This document shows positions 3,313 through 32,540 of a stretch of 32,540 nt of DNA, one piece after another. Position 1 is the stretch's first letter; each line of letters opens with the position of its first letter. The DNA is taken from assembly GCA_944388955.1 (NCBI GenBank), contig CALXKJ010000020.1:1-32540 (forward strand), written 5' to 3'. The translations under genes and the position numbers were made by a program. The notes under the pieces were generated by a model. The model saw only the letters and a program-made list of their open reading frames with translations, was not told the origin of the DNA and did not search any database. Source of the stretch: an uncultured Spirochaetaceae bacterium (GTDB lineage: Bacteria > Spirochaetota > Spirochaetia > Sphaerochaetales > Sphaerochaetaceae).

Positions 3313-3894
3313 TTATATAGCAGGTACCAAAATATCAGCATTGATCTTTATCTCGTGATCAATGAGTTTTTTCATTATAACGACGTCAGGTTCACTATTT
3401 TCAGTGCCTTCTGATTGAGAAACATCTCCACTCCCTGTTTCATCGATAAACTTCACTTTTGCTTCCATGGTATTTCTCTCAGCATCAATGAACCTGTATT
3501 CTACAATCAAGGTCTCACTCTCAACAGTGAAAGAAATTGCAAAACTTCCATCCTCTTTGCTCTGGGTTCGATTGGATTTAATGAAATATGCAGCTGTTGC
3601 CTCATCTATTTCATATGGATCAAGCGGTTTGGAATCTGAATCAGTCGAGGATGAATCTGAAGTGACAAACCCAAAACACCAATATCCTGGCACCGTGTAT
3701 TGGATATCAATAATAACATCAACGAATTCTTCTTCCTTTTCCAGTGTATCTGGATCATCATCATACACCGCCCACTGGCCTCTGAGGGCATCCGCATCTG
3801 TCGGTGGATCTGGAGCACAGGATGATAATCCCACCATCAGCAACAAGGCTGCAAAGAGCATTATTAGAGCAGTTCCGTTCTTTCGTCTTTTCAT
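3313..3894 (-). CDS. Putative lipoprotein of unknown function
   Basis: A 193-residue protein with a classic lipoprotein signal: positive MKRRKNG, hydrophobic core ALIMLFAALLLMVGL, and lipobox LSSC with the lipidated Cys near residue 26. After it come APDPPTDADALRGQWAVYDD and an acidic, beta-rich body with 'W.v' and 'Y..p' features like small calycin-type lipoproteins (first strand GQWAVYDDD). I recognise no catalytic motif. The expected location is membrane-anchored at the surface or periplasm. The start ATG has a good AGGAG five to six bases upstream. A G9 tract lies about 100 bp upstream between promoter-like elements, so expression may vary by tract length. A strong terminator follows. It is an orphan, flanked by decayed sequence on both sides. 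Confidence 0.75.
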   Translation of the reverse strand: MKRRKNGTALIMLFAALLLMVGLSSCAPDPPTDADALRGQWAVYDDDPDTLEKEEEFVDVIIDIQYTVPGYWCFGFVTSDSSSTDSDSKPLDPYEIDEATAAYFIKSNRTQSKEDGSFAISFTVESETLIVEYRFIDAERNTMEAKVKFIDETGSGDVSQSEGTENSEPDVVIMKKLIDHEIKINADILVPAI

Positions 3895-3910: not shown

Positions 3911-4203
3911 GCAAATTTTCTCTGTTGGCTGAAGGATCTTGCCAAGTCCTCCAGATCCGTGCATGGAAAGAATTATTCCTGATTCTAATGCTACCCCCCC
4001 CCTCCGGTTTCATGCGTCAACAAAAACTTATTCTTGAGCCTGAAGCCATTCATCAATCATGACGTACCAGCATACGAGATTCAATACTCAAGCGCATCTT
4101 ACATTTTTAGATAATATATTTTAGGAACCCTAATAGATAACAGCGGAGGCGGTCATGGAAAGATCTCTACTCAGGAGAAATCCCGTCTTCATCGACAGTT
4201 TCA
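3911..4203. other. Intergenic region upstream of the lipoprotein gene
   Basis: Apart from the G9-containing promoter candidate this stretch has no supported gene. A 40-codon frame (ATG at 4011-4013, minus) runs through the G9 tract and ends in an ATGA overlap with the lipoprotein start, but it has no ribosome site and unremarkable composition, so I do not call it a gene. Confidence 0.4.
3982..4020 (-). promoter_or_regulatory. Candidate promoter with a G9 tract in the spacer
   Basis: On the minus strand TTGACG (4015-4020) is followed by a G9 run (3994-4002 as C on plus) and then TAGCAT (3988-3993) and TAGAAT (3982-3987). The TTGACG-to-TAGCAT spacer is 21 nt, longer than the optimal 17, so loss of G residues would move it toward the optimum. 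It lies about 90-125 bp above the lipoprotein start. The promoter call is an inference; the homopolymer is directly visible. Confidence 0.4.
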
Positions 4204-17174: not shown

Positions 17175-18971
17175 ATGAAGAAACTATTCATTGCCATTCT
17201 TCTTATCGCAGCAACAGCTACGGTGACAGCCTCCGATGGAGAGCTGAACTATGAGAAAATCTACCCTATTCACGATGAGATTGTCTCAGACATGAAAGAC
17301 CTCTATATCCTTGCCGGTTACGCTCTCCCATCCACAGCAGGCCCATACAGCGGAAGTGAGCTGAAGATGGCACTCGAGCGCATAGACCGTGATTCTCTAC
17401 GGGGGGGGGGACGGAAGCTTTACGATAGGATAGAAAGAAAGCTTACCGAAGATGCGGAAGCTGCAGCTTTCACTTTCTCATTCTCTGTATCACCTGAAAT
17501 CTACGTCCACACAAACACATCCAAGGATTTCCAGACATGGGACAACTGGATGCAGGAATGGGCAGATAATAAAAGCGCATTGAGTATTGTCGGAGAACAG
17601 CATATAGGAAGCAATTTCTATGGCTTCTTCGACTTCTCTTTAGGCACGACGAAAACGAAATCGAGCAAGACACAATCAGGTGTTGCCTTCGGTGATAGGA
17701 TAATCGAGACAAACATCCCGATTGCAATCATGAGCAATCTCGATTTCAACTTCCCGTATCGAGCATTTGTAGCAGCAGGCGGAAAGAACTGGAGTCTTCA
17801 GGTAGGAAGGGAGCGTTACTCATGGGGACCGGGACATACGGGAAACTTCATCCTAGGCGACCATATCAAGTATCATAACTCTGCGCGCGTGACAGCGTTC
17901 TCAAAGAACTTCAAGTACACATTCCTCGTTCTCAGCTTCATACATCCGCAGAATTATTACTTTGCAGACGAGGAAGGAGGAACATCATACCTCCATCCTA
18001 ATGGCTCGTCTGACGGACAGAGTGCTTATCTCAATGGAATCAGCGCGTTCATCGCCCATAGGCTCGAATGGAGACTATTCCAGAACAAAGTAGGCATAGC
18101 ACTCACAGAAGGCGTGATGTATATGTCGAAAGACAACAGGATTGACCTCATAGCACTCTCCCCTGCACACCTCTTCCACAATTCATACACAAGATCGCTT
18201 ACAAATTCGATTCTGAGCCTTGAAGTCGATTACACACCCATCTCAGGTCTCAATCTCTACACAGAGATCGTAATGGATGAGATGGTACTGCCAGGAGAAC
18301 CAAAACCAGGGAAAGACACTAAGCTTGCTGAGCCATCGGCTATGGGTTACATGCTTGGTGCGACTTACACAATGGAAGCCTGGGATGGTATTCTCTCATT
18401 CAATCTCGAAGGTGCGTATACAGATCCATATCTCTATCTCAGGGATGGAGACGCACAGGTGAATGGCACATCCAAGAGAGAGCAGCATGAGGGAGACTGG
18501 GGAATAAACTTCGTCGTACCGACAAGGGAGATGATCAACACAGGCGGCAAGCAGTACTTTGATGAGCAGTTCCTAGGCTACAGATGGGGAGGAGATGCAA
18601 TCGTTGCCCAGCTTTCAGCAAGCTACAGAAGGCCAGACTCATTCTTTGCTGGTGCTTCGCTTTTCTACATGGCACATGGCACGCATGACAAGTGGACAGT
18701 ATGGACACGTGTAAATGGTGATTACAATAATGTCACGACACCGACAACAGAACATCAGACTGAAAACAACTATCCTGGAAATAATGCAGAAGAACGCGAT
18801 AGCGTAAGGCATGTAATAGATGTGGGGCTCAATGGAGGTGTTTATCTTCCATACGGCTTCAGCATCTACACAGATATCCACTTCATGACTGTCGTGCATC
18901 CTGGTAACGTGAAAGCAAATGGATGTGCATTCGATCTGCAATGGTCGCTTGGGATTGCCTGGAGCATCTAA
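17175..18971 (+). CDS. Wzi-like outer-membrane beta-barrel protein with internal G10 tract
   Basis: A 598-residue protein with a clear signal peptide (MKKLFIAILLIAATATVTAS). Then come the family's N-terminal helical region (LYILAGYALPSTAGPYSGSE) and a long run of amphipathic strands as in the capsule-assembly Wzi-like family (Pfam Caps_assemb_Wzi). Landmarks shared with the three paralogues are GRERYSWGPGHTGNF and FLGYRWGGDAIVAQ. Expected location is the outer membrane; substrate unknown. Codons 76-79 are built from ten consecutive G (17401-17410). The tract is in frame here, and the flanking sequence aligns with the paralogues without gaps, so this is the 'on' form. Loss or gain of one G would stop translation at codon 86 or 85. 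AAGGAG precedes the start. It is followed after 1 nt by a paralogue. Confidence 0.85.
   Translation: MKKLFIAILLIAATATVTASDGELNYEKIYPIHDEIVSDMKDLYILAGYALPSTAGPYSGSELKMALERIDRDSLRGGGRKLYDRIERKLTEDAEAAAFTFSFSVSPEIYVHTNTSKDFQTWDNWMQEWADNKSALSIVGEQHIGSNFYGFFDFSLGTTKTKSSKTQSGVAFGDRIIETNIPIAIMSNLDFNFPYRAFVAAGGKNWSLQVGRERYSWGPGHTGNFILGDHIKYHNSARVTAFSKNFKYTFLVLSFIHPQNYYFADEEGGTSYLHPNGSSDGQSAYLNGISAFIAHRLEWRLFQNKVGIALTEGVMYMSKDNRIDLIALSPAHLFHNSYTRSLTNSILSLEVDYTPISGLNLYTEIVMDEMVLPGEPKPGKDTKLAEPSAMGYMLGATYTMEAWDGILSFNLEGAYTDPYLYLRDGDAQVNGTSKREQHEGDWGINFVVPTREMINTGGKQYFDEQFLGYRWGGDAIVAQLSASYRRPDSFFAGASLFYMAHGTHDKWTVWTRVNGDYNNVTTPTTEHQTENNYPGNNAEERDSVRHVIDVGLNGGVYLPYGFSIYTDIHFMTVVHPGNVKANGCAFDLQWSLGIAWSI
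17401..17410 (+). repeat. G10 homopolymer inside a coding sequence
   Basis: Ten consecutive G bases encode part of Arg76 and Gly77-79 of the Wzi-like protein. G-to-G9 gives D-G-S-F-T-I-G-stop; G11 gives T-E-A-L-R-stop. Long G runs in surface-protein genes are classic slipped-strand contingency loci. Confidence 0.85.
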
Positions 18972-18972
18972 T

Positions 18973-20619
18973 ATGAGGAAGGCATTGCTTATCCTATTCA
19001 TGCTTCTTGTTATACTTCCGCTTTCAGCAGAAGGCGGAAGAATGATCAAGCTTAGCGACACGCTCTATGAGGACATGGAGGATCTATACCTTCTGAATGG
19101 TCTCTCCGGGCTCTCATCATCAAGGCCATGGAGCGAAAGCGAAGTGAAGATGATGCTTTCCCGACTCACCTACGATTCACTCGATTCATTAAGCAAAACC
19201 CTCTTTGACAGCATCAAGGGAAAACTGCGTGAGGAAAAGTACTACTTTGTACCATCACTCAGTATATCGCCTGAAATTTACTACCACACGAATGGAGAGC
19301 ATTTCAGGCATGATACTTACTGGCACTATGGATTCAACGAGCGAAATCCTTTCGCTCTCGCATCTATTGAAGCAGGACTCGACCCATTCTACACATATTC
19401 AGAGCTTGCATTCGGCTATGGAAGAGCGACCGGCTATGATACGTTTATCAAGACAGGAGACATCGAGAATTACTGCGGAATCGGGGCAATAGTGCCAGAA
19501 ACAGATAAAAACCTTGAGCTGCTTGATAAATCTGCAGTGTATTCATCTGCATTCTTATTCAATTTCCCGAAGCTGACGATGCTTGAAATCGATATGCCAA
19601 GACGCACATCCTTCACATTCGGTTTCGAAGATATGACATTCGGTTTTCTCAGGGATAAACTCTCCTGGGGTAGATCAAAACTAGGGAATTTCATCTTCGA
19701 TGACCACGTTTCCAAGATGGATTATCTCTTTCTGAAACTATATTACGATCGCTTCAGCTTTGATTATGTTCTATACCTGCCAGAGGTAGATTATTCCAAT
19801 GGAAACAGCAATGTTTATGATGGAAGAAACAGAATAATGCTTGCGCATATGCTTTCATTCAGGATTCTCGATAATCTATCGATGGCTGTCTCAGAGAATA
19901 TCATGTATGCTTACAAGACAGGAGAGTTATTCCAATTCAATCCCTCGATGATTTTCCATAATCTGAATAATTCAGAGACGCTCAATGCGATTGCACATCT
20001 TGAAATTGAATACGTACCCACTAGAGGTTTAAGATTATACACGCAGTTTGCACTCGATCAGGCAACGATAATCACAGAGCCTGACGCACAGCCAATGGCC
20101 TTCGGAGTCTCACTGAGCGCCGAGTACGCTATGAGGCTTGGAAATGGCATTCTCTCCTTCTTCGCGGAAGGTGCTTATACTTCCCCTTATCTATATAGAC
20201 GGGACAAAGTGGACTTCATTGTCTTTAACCGATATTCAACGAATGTGATCTACAGGAAAATCCCTATATTCACGTATATAGGCTTTCCATATGGTGGTGA
20301 CAGCATTGCAGCCTGCTTCGATGTTGGCTACAGAATGCCTGATTCTCTTTCTATTACACTTTCATGTATGTACCTTCTTCATGGAGAAGTCACGATGCTA
20401 GCATCACATTCATCTACTGGTGACAATAACAAAGCTCCTGATATACACGGAGCCACACCTACAGGCAATGCTACGCATCATGTGGTTCTCGCTTTAGACG
20501 CTCGCTATCCATATTCATTCTCTATTTTCGCATTGGAAGGGTTCGTGAATATTGCATATATCTACGATGAAGGCAATCATGATTTTCAGCTAGCTATTGG
20601 TGTAAGCATAAGCGTATGA
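18973..20619 (+). CDS. Wzi-like outer-membrane beta-barrel protein
   Basis: A 548-residue paralogue of the preceding gene. The signal peptide is MRKALLILFMLLVILPLSAE. The N-terminal region keeps YEDMEDLYLLNGLSGLSSSR and PWSESEVKMMLSRL. Barrel landmarks are RDKLSWGRSKLGNFIFDDH and YIGFPYGGDSIAACFD. It ends AIGVSISV, with a terminal aliphatic residue where many outer-membrane proteins have Phe. The start at 18973 is 1 nt after the upstream stop, with GGAG (18961-18964) inside the upstream gene. Where the first paralogue has RGGGR, this gene has DSLSK and no homopolymer, so it is not subject to the same switch directly; it may still suffer polarity when the upstream gene is off. Confidence 0.83.
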   Translation: MRKALLILFMLLVILPLSAEGGRMIKLSDTLYEDMEDLYLLNGLSGLSSSRPWSESEVKMMLSRLTYDSLDSLSKTLFDSIKGKLREEKYYFVPSLSISPEIYYHTNGEHFRHDTYWHYGFNERNPFALASIEAGLDPFYTYSELAFGYGRATGYDTFIKTGDIENYCGIGAIVPETDKNLELLDKSAVYSSAFLFNFPKLTMLEIDMPRRTSFTFGFEDMTFGFLRDKLSWGRSKLGNFIFDDHVSKMDYLFLKLYYDRFSFDYVLYLPEVDYSNGNSNVYDGRNRIMLAHMLSFRILDNLSMAVSENIMYAYKTGELFQFNPSMIFHNLNNSETLNAIAHLEIEYVPTRGLRLYTQFALDQATIITEPDAQPMAFGVSLSAEYAMRLGNGILSFFAEGAYTSPYLYRRDKVDFIVFNRYSTNVIYRKIPIFTYIGFPYGGDSIAACFDVGYRMPDSLSITLSCMYLLHGEVTMLASHSSTGDNNKAPDIHGATPTGNATHHVVLALDARYPYSFSIFALEGFVNIAYIYDEGNHDFQLAIGVSISV

Positions 20620-29303: not shown

Positions 29304-30998
29304 TCAGAAATGAGCCGCAAGAGATAAGACAATCTGCAAATCATTCGTATTCTCCCGATGTCTCAATATGCCGTTTAATCCAAGCATGAAATCAAGCTGA
29401 GGCCAAGTGAACGAGCATATCTCAGAAATAGGGATCTCCGAAATAAGCGAAAGCACTGTCTTACAGGTGATATCACCATAGAACATCCCGGCAGCAATAT
29501 CAGGGAACTCACTGTTATTTCCGCTCGTGTTATGGGAAGTGAAGATATCAAGAGAGCCTTTTATAATCTCTTTTGCTGTAAATCCCAATCCAATACCATT
29601 CTTGAATTCATAATCAGCCTGAAGCTGAACTACAAGAGAATCATTTCCATACGGGAAGCCAAGGAAGTCTATGTCTATCACATACCCACCTGTTGTCGAA
29701 AGCTTGTTTTTATCAATTACAAGAAAATCAACATTATTCCTTCTGTATAGAAGAGGCGAAGTATATGCAACCTCAAGAGAGCCAGAGAAAACCCCTGATT
29801 CCCCTGCATTTGCATACTCAATGCCACCAAGAATCCCCCAAGCAGGACTCTGGTCATCACCCTCTCCAGGAGCTGTTGCCTGATCAAGCACAGCCTGCGC
29901 ATACAGATTGAAGCCCTTGGCAAATTGCCAATCGAGATCGACGCTCGCTATTGCGTTAAATAAAGAGCGGTTATCGAGATTATGGAAAATGAATGCCGGA
30001 TTGAAATACTTAAGCTCAACGCCTGTTTTGGAAACATACATAACATTCTCGCTGACAGAGAACGTAAGGTTTTTCAAAGGCCTGAATTCGAGACGATGTG
30101 CAATCAGAAATTTAGATCCAGAATCTTCTGTCTGACGACAACTGTAGTCATATTCAAGAAACAGTGTCAGAAATTCATATTTGAACTTATCAGAGAAGAA
30201 AACAAAGCGAAGGAAATCATTGTAATCCAAATGGTTATCAACTACGAAATTACCGATATGGGAATTTCCCCAGTTGATACGATCTCTGCCTAAAACAAGA
30301 CTCCAATGCTTGCCACCTGTAGATACATATGCACGTTTGGGAAATATAGAATCAAAATCATCGACATCAAGGAGAATATTGTGTGTGAAATATGGAGAAT
30401 ACATACCACTCTCTTCAATCATTTTCACATCTGCATCTGCAAGTTCACCAGCAGGAGGAACCACAGCTCCAATTCCATCAGGATGGATGTCTGCAACCAT
30501 ATAAGCAGTATCACTTCCACGATACTTGCCATTGGCAACTCTGATATCACAGAAAGTGTAGAACATATCAAGCATATCTATTGCGATATACCCCCTGAAC
30601 AATGGCAATCTTTCGTCGTACCCATATATCCAGTCAGACTCATGATTGAAAGATGGGTTTGTATGTATATAGCTTTCAAGTGCCAAATCAGCACCGAGAT
30701 CAAGAGAGACGATGCTATCAAGATTCAGCAATGGCTCATCAGACAGCAGATCAGAAATTGACTCATAAAGCTCCACTTCCGCTTTATCCAGTGCTGATTT
30801 ATCGATACGCTCCAGAATCATCACAGCCTCAGCTTTTGACCAAGGCCTTGAATTGGATGGGGTTCCATACCCTGCACTAAGATATAGAATCTCCATTTCA
30901 TCATACAAAGGGCTGTCCAGTGGATAAACTTCCACTGTCCCTGCAGACAGAGGCACTGAAAGCAGGGATATTACCAAAAGCAATATATATTTCTTCAT
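29304..30998 (-). CDS. Wzi-like outer-membrane beta-barrel protein
   Basis: A 564-residue paralogue of the pair at 17175-20619. The signal peptide is MKKYILLLVISLLSVPLSAG. Then come YDEMEILYLSAGYGTPSNSR and PWSKAEAVMILERIDKSALD. Barrel landmarks are GRDRINWGNSHIGNFVVDNH and FLGFPYGNDSLVVQLQ. It ends ...LSLAAHF with the terminal Phe typical of proteins folded by the BAM complex. The ATG overlaps the upstream gene's stop by 4 nt (ATGA), so the two form one unit. The gene lies just after tRNA-Arg on the opposite strand. No homopolymer occurs at the place of the G10 tract of the first paralogue. Function beyond the outer-membrane barrel is not known. Confidence 0.83.
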   Translation of the reverse strand: MKKYILLLVISLLSVPLSAGTVEVYPLDSPLYDEMEILYLSAGYGTPSNSRPWSKAEAVMILERIDKSALDKAEVELYESISDLLSDEPLLNLDSIVSLDLGADLALESYIHTNPSFNHESDWIYGYDERLPLFRGYIAIDMLDMFYTFCDIRVANGKYRGSDTAYMVADIHPDGIGAVVPPAGELADADVKMIEESGMYSPYFTHNILLDVDDFDSIFPKRAYVSTGGKHWSLVLGRDRINWGNSHIGNFVVDNHLDYNDFLRFVFFSDKFKYEFLTLFLEYDYSCRQTEDSGSKFLIAHRLEFRPLKNLTFSVSENVMYVSKTGVELKYFNPAFIFHNLDNRSLFNAIASVDLDWQFAKGFNLYAQAVLDQATAPGEGDDQSPAWGILGGIEYANAGESGVFSGSLEVAYTSPLLYRRNNVDFLVIDKNKLSTTGGYVIDIDFLGFPYGNDSLVVQLQADYEFKNGIGLGFTAKEIIKGSLDIFTSHNTSGNNSEFPDIAAGMFYGDITCKTVLSLISEIPISEICSFTWPQLDFMLGLNGILRHRENTNDLQIVLSLAAHF

Positions 30999-32455
30999 TT
31001 ACAGAGATTCCACAGATCAAGAGAACAACCGATAGTGAATGAAACCGCTGTCTGTCTATTCTTGATATCGCTATAAAGGCCAAACTGTCCTTTCAGAAGA
31101 ATTGAATCCTTTATGGCATATGAGCATCCGATATCACTCTTAATGATTGTTGCCACATCGCCATTCAAAGCAAATGAAGAGAATTTCGAATTGTTTTCTT
31201 TGTTATATTCTTCATCTATTCTATAAGAGCCTTTGAAAATCAGCTCGAAATTGAACCATGCCTTGATTGGATCGTCCTCATATTCAAGAAGGATTTTACC
31301 GACCATCGTATCTGGTCCATAGGGGAAACCTATGAAGAAAGCATTCTTGTCAGCTACATATCCGCCATCGGAGAAGTTGTATACCCACATGGGAACTGTG
31401 AACTTACCGCTGTCAACATCACGGCTGTAAAGAAAAGCTGTTGCCCAATACCATTCAAGCGAAAGGTTTAATCCTCCTGAGAACTTAAAGCTATCTTCTC
31501 TGAGGGTATAATCTTTACGCACTGCTACTGTTTTCTGCTGTTTATCACCATCTAAGAAATGGAATTCAATACCTGCAGCGAATCCCATGGCTGATGGTTT
31601 TGAGTTCACATCTTCACTGCCAAAAACAAAATCATCCATTGCGAAAAGACCATAGACTCGGAAATCGAGGGGGTTTAAGAGAAATAGCTTCTCAACTGCC
31701 AGCTCAATCATGACATTTGAGCGATCATGCTGGTAATTATTATGCCAGAATGCAAGAGGTGAAGCATCAAGGAGACTCGGAATTTTGTTATAAATGAGAT
31801 TAAGCTCGCTGAAACTTACTCTCCAGGTTTCATTCTCCCAGCCAAGCTTATGGGAGAAAAGAGTCTTGGAATTCAGATCCGCTCCATCAAAGTCATTATC
31901 ATGGTTTTCAGGATATCCAAGTGACGTGTTATTAAAGCCTGTGACAATGTAGTTATACCAGATATTACCGAAAGAAACGGGGAAATTGATGTCTATATAA
32001 ATACTGTCTAAGAATGGAGCTGAATCATTTATCGCGAAATCATAGCTTGCGGGTCCCCATTTCAGGGCTCTTCTTCCAACAGAGGCATACACATTCCAGA
32101 AATTGAAGTCGACATAGCCGAGCTTTGTCCAGTTCATGTCAGCAATGGCATAAAGGTTGTTACCGATAAAAGGTATATTTGTCCATTGTGTCTCCTCAAA
32201 ATACGTAACAATATCCTGCTGTAGATCAAGAAGAACAACGAGTCCAACATGATCGCTTGTCAGCTCAAGGCCCAAATCAAGCAAAGAAGCGGAATCATAG
32301 TAGCGCATGTATTTCTGCTGTGATAATTCTACAAAATCATCAAGCTCTTCGAAGATTATTTTCTTGTCTCCTTCAGAAAGTCTGCTAAGAGGTGTATGAG
32401 GATAATTATCCCATATGAAATATGGGTTCAGATTGGAAATGGGCTTGACTGTCAC
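30995..32455 (-). CDS. Wzi-like barrel protein lacking its signal peptide (5'-damaged)
   Basis: 486 residues from a GTG start. It is the most divergent of the four paralogues but keeps YASVGRRALKWGPASYDFAI and FIGFPYGPDTMVGKILLEYE, and has the same barrel-like strand pattern. No signal peptide precedes TVKPISNLNPYFIWDNYPHT. The in-frame codons just upstream read F-I-F-G-D, which fits the end of a signal peptide, but a TAG stands immediately before them, and no other frame gives a hydrophobic leader. So the export signal has probably been lost, or the real start lies in an edited or mis-assembled region. Without it the protein cannot reach the outer membrane. It overlaps the next gene by ATGA. 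Confidence 0.65.
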   Translation of the reverse strand: MTVKPISNLNPYFIWDNYPHTPLSRLSEGDKKIIFEELDDFVELSQQKYMRYYDSASLLDLGLELTSDHVGLVVLLDLQQDIVTYFEETQWTNIPFIGNNLYAIADMNWTKLGYVDFNFWNVYASVGRRALKWGPASYDFAINDSAPFLDSIYIDINFPVSFGNIWYNYIVTGFNNTSLGYPENHDNDFDGADLNSKTLFSHKLGWENETWRVSFSELNLIYNKIPSLLDASPLAFWHNNYQHDRSNVMIELAVEKLFLLNPLDFRVYGLFAMDDFVFGSEDVNSKPSAMGFAAGIEFHFLDGDKQQKTVAVRKDYTLREDSFKFSGGLNLSLEWYWATAFLYSRDVDSGKFTVPMWVYNFSDGGYVADKNAFFIGFPYGPDTMVGKILLEYEDDPIKAWFNFELIFKGSYRIDEEYNKENNSKFSSFALNGDVATIIKSDIGCSYAIKDSILLKGQFGLYSDIKNRQTAVSFTIGCSLDLWNLCK

Positions 32456-32480
32456 ATCACCAAATATGAACTAACCCCCT

Positions 32481-32521
32481 GAAGGTAGACACTACCAGAC
32501 CTTCTTTTAAGCTATATTATA
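32481..32521 (-). promoter_or_regulatory. Promoter-like box and dyad upstream of the damaged Wzi-like gene
   Basis: TATAAT on the minus strand (32516-32521) is followed by an inverted repeat GAAGGT...ACCTTC (32481-32504) with an inner GGTAG-ACA-CTACC. A G5 run lies just below it (32476-32480). The matching -35 would fall at or past the window edge. Confidence 0.35.
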
Positions 32522-32540
32522 AGCTTTGCATCTTCAAGTT

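Follow-up and report, generated by a model that had tools for sequence, protein, structure and literature searches.

Phase variation through simple sequence repeats (SSRs) is known mainly from pathogens with small genomes. In the spirochaete Treponema pallidum, the poly-G tract of tp0126, encoding an OmpW homologue, lies, in the account given in PMC7864442, between the -35 and -10 elements, with an optimum of 17 nt in total. The tprL tracts, found with 7-11 Gs in vivo, overlap the -10 region and leave the -35/-10 spacing unaltered, and a change between 8 and 10 Gs alters reporter output (PMC7864442). A poly-G in the -35/-10 spacer is also described there for Neisseria porA. Within coding sequences, frameshift switches made of homopolymers are a textbook form (PMC5953494), and phase variation by coding SSRs is described for Campylobacter in PMC8355987. 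The mechanism is already known from T. pallidum poly-G promoters, Neisseria porA and the coding SSRs of Neisseria and Campylobacter; the initial annotation of the locus considered here likewise took poly-G switching to be established for T. pallidum surface genes.

The stretch of DNA analyzed (hereafter, the window) makes up an entire contig, C20 (32,540 bp); the genome, of 2.1 Mb, is assembled in 33 contigs. The genus comprises uncultured spirochaetes, several members of which came from animal guts, judging by the record titles. The window harbors a G10 tract within an outer-membrane protein (OMP) gene (Table 1), which is very likely a phase-variation (contingency) switch belonging to a genome-wide set of coding and promoter-spacer switches.

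Table 1. Features of the window, with their positions, strands and the evidence behind them
Feature	Position	Strand	Evidence
Lipoprotein gene (MKRRKNGTALIMLFAALLLMVGLSSCAPD...) downstream of the promoter tract	3313..3894	-	ORF
-10-like hexamer TAGCAT, abutting G9	3988..3993	-	
Second tract: G9 in a promoter spacer, TTGACG-N12-G9-TAGCAT	3994..4002	-	
-35-like hexamer TTGACG	4015..4020	-	
Wzi-type outer-membrane beta-barrel gene, 598 aa, assembled ON through G10	17175..18971	+	ORF, Pfam, AlphaFold, fold match, orthologues 68-74%
G10 tract, proposed slipped-strand on/off switch	17401..17410	+	run search, frame table
Paralogue 1 nt downstream, probably co-transcribed, without tract	18973..20619	+	ORF, alignment
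Third Wzi-like paralogue, without tract	29304..30998	-	PF14052 5.1e-12, 45.9 bits, above Pfam cut-off
C-terminal part of Wzi-like OMP gene (weak profile match), severed by mobile element	30995..32455	-	
End B of repeated IS-like element, contig break point	32467..32540	-	inverted repeat TCTACCTTCAGGGGGTTAGTTCA

The G10 tract and the gene that carries it

The tract occupies codons 76-79 (CGG GGG GGG GGA), so the initial annotation had placed it correctly, in frame, at residues 76-79 of a product whose ORF opens with a signal-peptide-like segment. Its prediction that either G9 or G11 would reach a stop within ten codons was borne out by the recomputed frame table, where G10 gives 598 aa, G9 85 aa and G11 84 aa. 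Hence, as in translational-type SSRs, a pure homopolymer longer than expected by chance lies within an ORF, and a change by a single G results in a frameshift and a truncated product. Runs of eight or more Gs gave five overlapping matches in the window against 0.18 expected. The tract region (RGGGRKLYD) aligns with the corresponding segments of two window paralogues (DSLSKTLFD and DKAEVELYE) free of gaps, as had been claimed, and the ATG of the downstream paralogue is indeed situated 1 nt past the stop codon. A consensus scan of the window, to which spacers above 18 nt are invisible, revealed no convincing promoter 5' of the gene.

In the whole genome, 21 runs of G9-G11 were found (16 G9, 3 G10 and 2 G11, assembled homopolymer lengths being possibly off by one). 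The distribution of run lengths is bimodal: among the first 100 G6 matches listed, about three were exact G7 and none was an exact G8.

According to the proposed mechanism, the homopolymer would gain or lose one G at high frequency during replication. In the right length class the barrel would be read in frame (ON, as assembled), and one G more or less would shift the frame and leave a fragment of 84-85 aa (OFF), reversibly and in a part of the population. A minority of the switches would reside in coding sequences, namely in genes for Wzi-like OMPs and in a restriction enzyme gene; the majority would be G8-G12 tracts flanked by a -35 element of TTGACA type and a TAnnnT -10 element, where slippage would alter the spacer and tune the transcription of surface lipoproteins. 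The benefit expected from such a system would be diversification of the cell surface. Switching of the G10 tract might also exert a polar effect on the downstream paralogue. Loss of mismatch repair was considered as a driver of slippage and rejected: MutS and MutL are intact in the genome, so slippage is not aided by such a loss.

The 598-aa protein matches PF14052 (Caps_assemb_Wzi) with E 4.6e-5 and 23 bits, below the curated cut-off of 30.1. Its AlphaFold model (14 window and related sequences; pTM 0.78, mean pLDDT 73.6) features N-terminal helices followed by a beta-barrel, and the top PDB fold match found by Foldseek is E. coli Wzi, 2ynk (E 2e-16, probability 1.00, TM 0.70 by target length). 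Since the modeled fold matches 2ynk best, the predicted protein can safely be called a Wzi-type barrel; the name refers to the fold and not to a role in capsule assembly.

In the model, the tract falls at the start of the last N-terminal helix, before the barrel. Such a position within the N-terminal helical part could tolerate glycine-rich codons without selection for switching, and the surrounding stretch of the alignment is poorly conserved, both of which would suit a neutral glycine-rich segment of a fast-evolving protein that mutates without being a selected switch. The orthologues from G017 (72%) and G002 (69%), which possess ordinary codons at the G10 site, are compatible with this possibility as well. 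Non-G codons in close relatives had been named beforehand as an observation that would speak against a switch; they do occur, and what follows from them is only that the window G10 is lineage-specific.

At the same time, the other close orthologues carry tracts of their own. In that of an uncultured Spirochaetaceae (L059, 74%), an in-frame G9 is found at WDNWLMGGGKSWADN, at a different position in the gene, and in that of Ca. Aphodenecus pullistercoris (L062, 68%), there is an in-frame C9 near the signal peptide. Thus, three of the five closest orthologues, compared on the basis of one genome per species, harbor an in-frame G/C9-10 at three different places (the window G10 included), which indicates a repeated origin of tracts within one gene. 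Furthermore, in the sister species G017, the G10 of a different paralogue follows YRAFGSI and coincides exactly with a break of the frame, beyond which the protein continues in another frame; this gene is in the OFF state. ON states are seen in the window, L059 and L062, and the OFF state of G017 concerns another gene.

The lengths of the runs are informative, too. A homology-based sample of about 113 Wzi-like frames contained 664, 129, 12, 2 and 0 G/C runs of lengths 4 to 8, respectively, and beyond the empty length 8, runs of 9-10 appeared in four distinct genes. (Non-Wzi frames were set aside as a comparison for the coding tracts because the choice of loci was biased.) Glycine can be encoded without a pure run of G, and a chance run of ten is very unlikely. 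Collectively, the fact that orthologues and paralogues carry independent in-frame tracts of one length class, the frameshift at one of these tracts and the missing runs of eight indicate selection for pure tracts, and we consider the neutral explanation unlikely. Contingency loci are recognized by this kind of pattern, in which a single gene family has acquired tracts of one length class several times independently, and the slipped-strand reading proposed initially gains support from the tracts of the orthologues and the frameshifted G017 paralogue.

Coding tracts of this genome were found in three OMP genes, two of them with an in-frame C9 that becomes visible once a mobile element is bridged (see below), and in one gene for an Mrr/ResIII restriction enzyme. 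In the latter (735+ aa), an in-frame C9 is located at L001:1501-1509 (G000:C1:38252-38260), and the gene is possibly a phase-variable defense gene.

Poly-G tracts in promoter spacers

The initial annotation overlooked that the coding tracts are a minority, most of the poly-G of the genome being situated in the promoter spacers of surface lipoproteins; nor did it include the second tract of the window, a G9 on the minus strand. The layout around this G9 is that of a poly-G promoter motif found throughout the genus, and the lipoprotein gene behind it gave no match in a Pfam search. In the genome as a whole, 11 of the 21 tracts, the window G9 among them, fit TTGAC(A/G)-N8-12-G9/10-TA, and in all 11 the hexamer following the tract is TAnnnT; the mobile element interrupts a twelfth promoter, and looser versions of the motif account for up to three more tracts. 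Most products of the genes behind these promoters are lipoproteins or OMPs. Among them are a leucine-rich repeat protein of BspA type, a protein with a weak match to an outer-membrane barrel and right-handed beta-helix proteins, in one of which a pectate-lyase-like adhesive domain was recognized; in one case, the product, a DUF6884 protein, lacks a surface signal. The tracts at C1:45686 and C4:427 were assigned to neither the promoter nor the coding group. The former, a G11 (L002:1501-1511), is flanked by very small ORFs, and the region may be a mobile element.

Across the genus, the pattern TTGACN{9,14}G8+TA was detected at 238 sites (a hand sum of row counts) in 37 of the 48 genomes, many of which contain five to fourteen near-standard poly-G promoters each; the reversed pattern, used as a control, gave no sites in any of the 48. 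In a sample of 31 sites, a TAnnnT -10 element was present in 30 and a downstream lipobox in 24, with a -35/-10 spacer of 17-21 nt (mode 18-19). The poly-G is, therefore, positioned between the -35 and -10 elements, as in spacer-type switches, at the 11 sites of this genome as well as at the 238 of the genus. In the phylum sample (393 genomes, hand count), matches to the motif concentrate in this genus and in family f18 of the same class, probably Treponemataceae, 45 of whose 79 genomes are positive, as compared with 1 of 36 in f20 and 0 of 29 in f40. Many poly-G promoter-like sites were noted in f18 genomes (e.g., G324, G388, G414 and G427), where some tracts are far longer: a repeat in G414 consists of TTGACTTTTGA, about 12-16 Gs and TA.

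The high uniformity of the TTGACA-N10-G9-TAnnnT layout, with a modal length of 9, would also be expected if the promoter tracts were fixed elements (a spacer DNA shape, a regulator site or a G-quadruplex) that do not switch by length and are unrelated to the coding tracts. Tract length, however, ranges from 8 to 12 among near-identical promoter copies of the same genome, and the total spacer from 17 to 21. Unequal tracts were recorded in G046 (G8/G9), G004 (G8/G9), G019 (G9/G10) and G045 (G9/G12), where the flanks and the 5' coding ends of the paralogous promoters are near-identical, and in G048 G9 and G10 differ despite 60 identical upstream bases. In addition, length variation in vivo and an effect of length on reporter output are on record for the equivalent tracts of T. 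pallidum (PMC7864442). We, therefore, give little credence to fixed elements, finding them very unlikely, and retain the length-switch interpretation. The T. pallidum work supports, by analogy from a related organism, both the slippage and the expression-effect steps of the proposed mechanism (PMC7864442). In the spirochaetes studied here, tract length may vary within populations and may affect expression.

In a number of loci (L199-L216), the promoter, the 5' leader and the start of the signal peptide are near-identical ahead of different lipoprotein bodies, as if the 5' module had been duplicated. Several contigs end within this shared module.

An IS-like element beside the tracts

The right edge of the window is also a break point of the assembly. 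A 23-bp inverted repeat was found on six contig ends of the genome with two types of inner flank, namely end A (C3, C6 and C29) and end B (C7, C14 and C20, the last being the window edge). The six ends pair into three insertions, each with a 3-bp target duplication; for C3+C14 and C29+C20 the duplication alone permits two pairings, from which the one with an open OMP frame was chosen. Bridged in this way, both pairs yield an open OMP reading frame passing through C9, and C6+C7 yields a TTGACA-N9-G9-TAAGCT promoter ahead of a lipoprotein. The signal-peptide part of the OMP gene severed at the window edge is located on C29 and ends in the in-frame C9. Consequently, two OMP genes with coding tracts and one switch promoter of this genome have been interrupted by the element. 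We rejected the view that the mobile element includes the G9 next to the contig-end repeat: since bridging with the 3-bp duplication restores the OMP frames and a normal promoter, the G-tract belongs to the target site.

All three A ends of this genome continue with ATAC or AAAC and then G9-TA. Among 12 end-A-like junctions in the genus, a G-run starts within 4 nt in 10 (one of these G-rich and not pure), and of the two junctions without a nearby G-run at least one resembles a solo end. An exact search for the inverted repeat plus G7 in the other genomes of the genus returned own copies only; diverged copies of the element were found in other species by similarity search. In G056, both inverted repeats enclose a short version of 88 bp, situated beside a G9 (L184:1457-1544).

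The ends of the element (TGAACTAACCCCCTGAAGGTAGA) form TG..CA inverted repeats with a 3-bp target duplication in the three end pairs, as in IS3-family elements. The interior of the element is absent from the assembly, and the sole rve match (C33) belongs to a different element; the IS3 transposase of C33 was tried as a candidate for the tract-seeking element and rejected, as its locus lacks the element ends. Because the transposase is missing from the assembly, the family is judged from the ends, by which it looks like an IS3-family IS. It is likely that this IS-like element inserts beside poly-G switch tracts with the same end toward the 5' side of the G-run and, hence, that the genus combines a duplicated poly-G lipoprotein-promoter module with an element landing on the switches.

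The assembly is fragmented and of the metagenome type, and several contig ends lie near G-runs, which might suggest that the tracts are assembly or sequencing artefacts, e.g., poly-G of two-color chemistry. On the other hand, the repeated IS-like element accounts for the contig ends, each tract is bordered by unique sequence on either side and set in a fixed promoter or codon context, and tracts of this kind are present in other species that were assembled independently. An artefact is, accordingly, highly improbable, and the G10 tract is regarded as real.

Relation to known systems

The literature search revealed no paper on phase variation of Wzi, in keeping with the initial claim that a Wzi-like target would be new, and nothing relevant on SSR phase variation in metagenomic spirochaetes. 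Within the literature searched, the lineage, the Wzi-type target, the standard poly-G promoter module shared across the genus and the tract-seeking IS-like element appear to be new. These findings suggest a greater age or a wider reuse of the T. pallidum poly-G strategy than has been assumed. They also predict which surface proteins of these commensals would be variable (BspA-like LRR, beta-helix and other lipoproteins along with OMP barrels), explain the breaks of such assemblies at tract loci and provide a testable case of a transposable element targeting contingency tracts.

By its N-terminal helices and barrel, the window protein is similar to Wzi, the lectin of E. coli K30 capsule assembly (PF14052, 2ynk), from which it differs by an identity of 12%, a Pfam score below the cut-off and membership in a multi-copy family. 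The frameshift principle is shared with the coding SSRs of Neisseria and Campylobacter, whereas the lineage is unrelated and the target is a Wzi-type barrel; likewise, Neisseria porA exhibits the same placement of poly-G in the promoter spacer in an unrelated lineage. The tpr genes of T. pallidum (tprE/G/J/L) employ poly-G of variable length for the control of surface proteins, as proposed here, but the tprL tract overlaps the -10 region and the promoter tracts described here end directly before it. The likeness to tp0126 lies in a spirochaete surface-protein promoter where the length of poly-G sets the -35/-10 spacer. Unlike tp0126, with its tract in the promoter, the window has its main tract in a coding sequence, and the promoters of these uncultured spirochaetes represent a standardized cassette, present genus-wide in up to 14 copies per genome and serving mostly lipoproteins.
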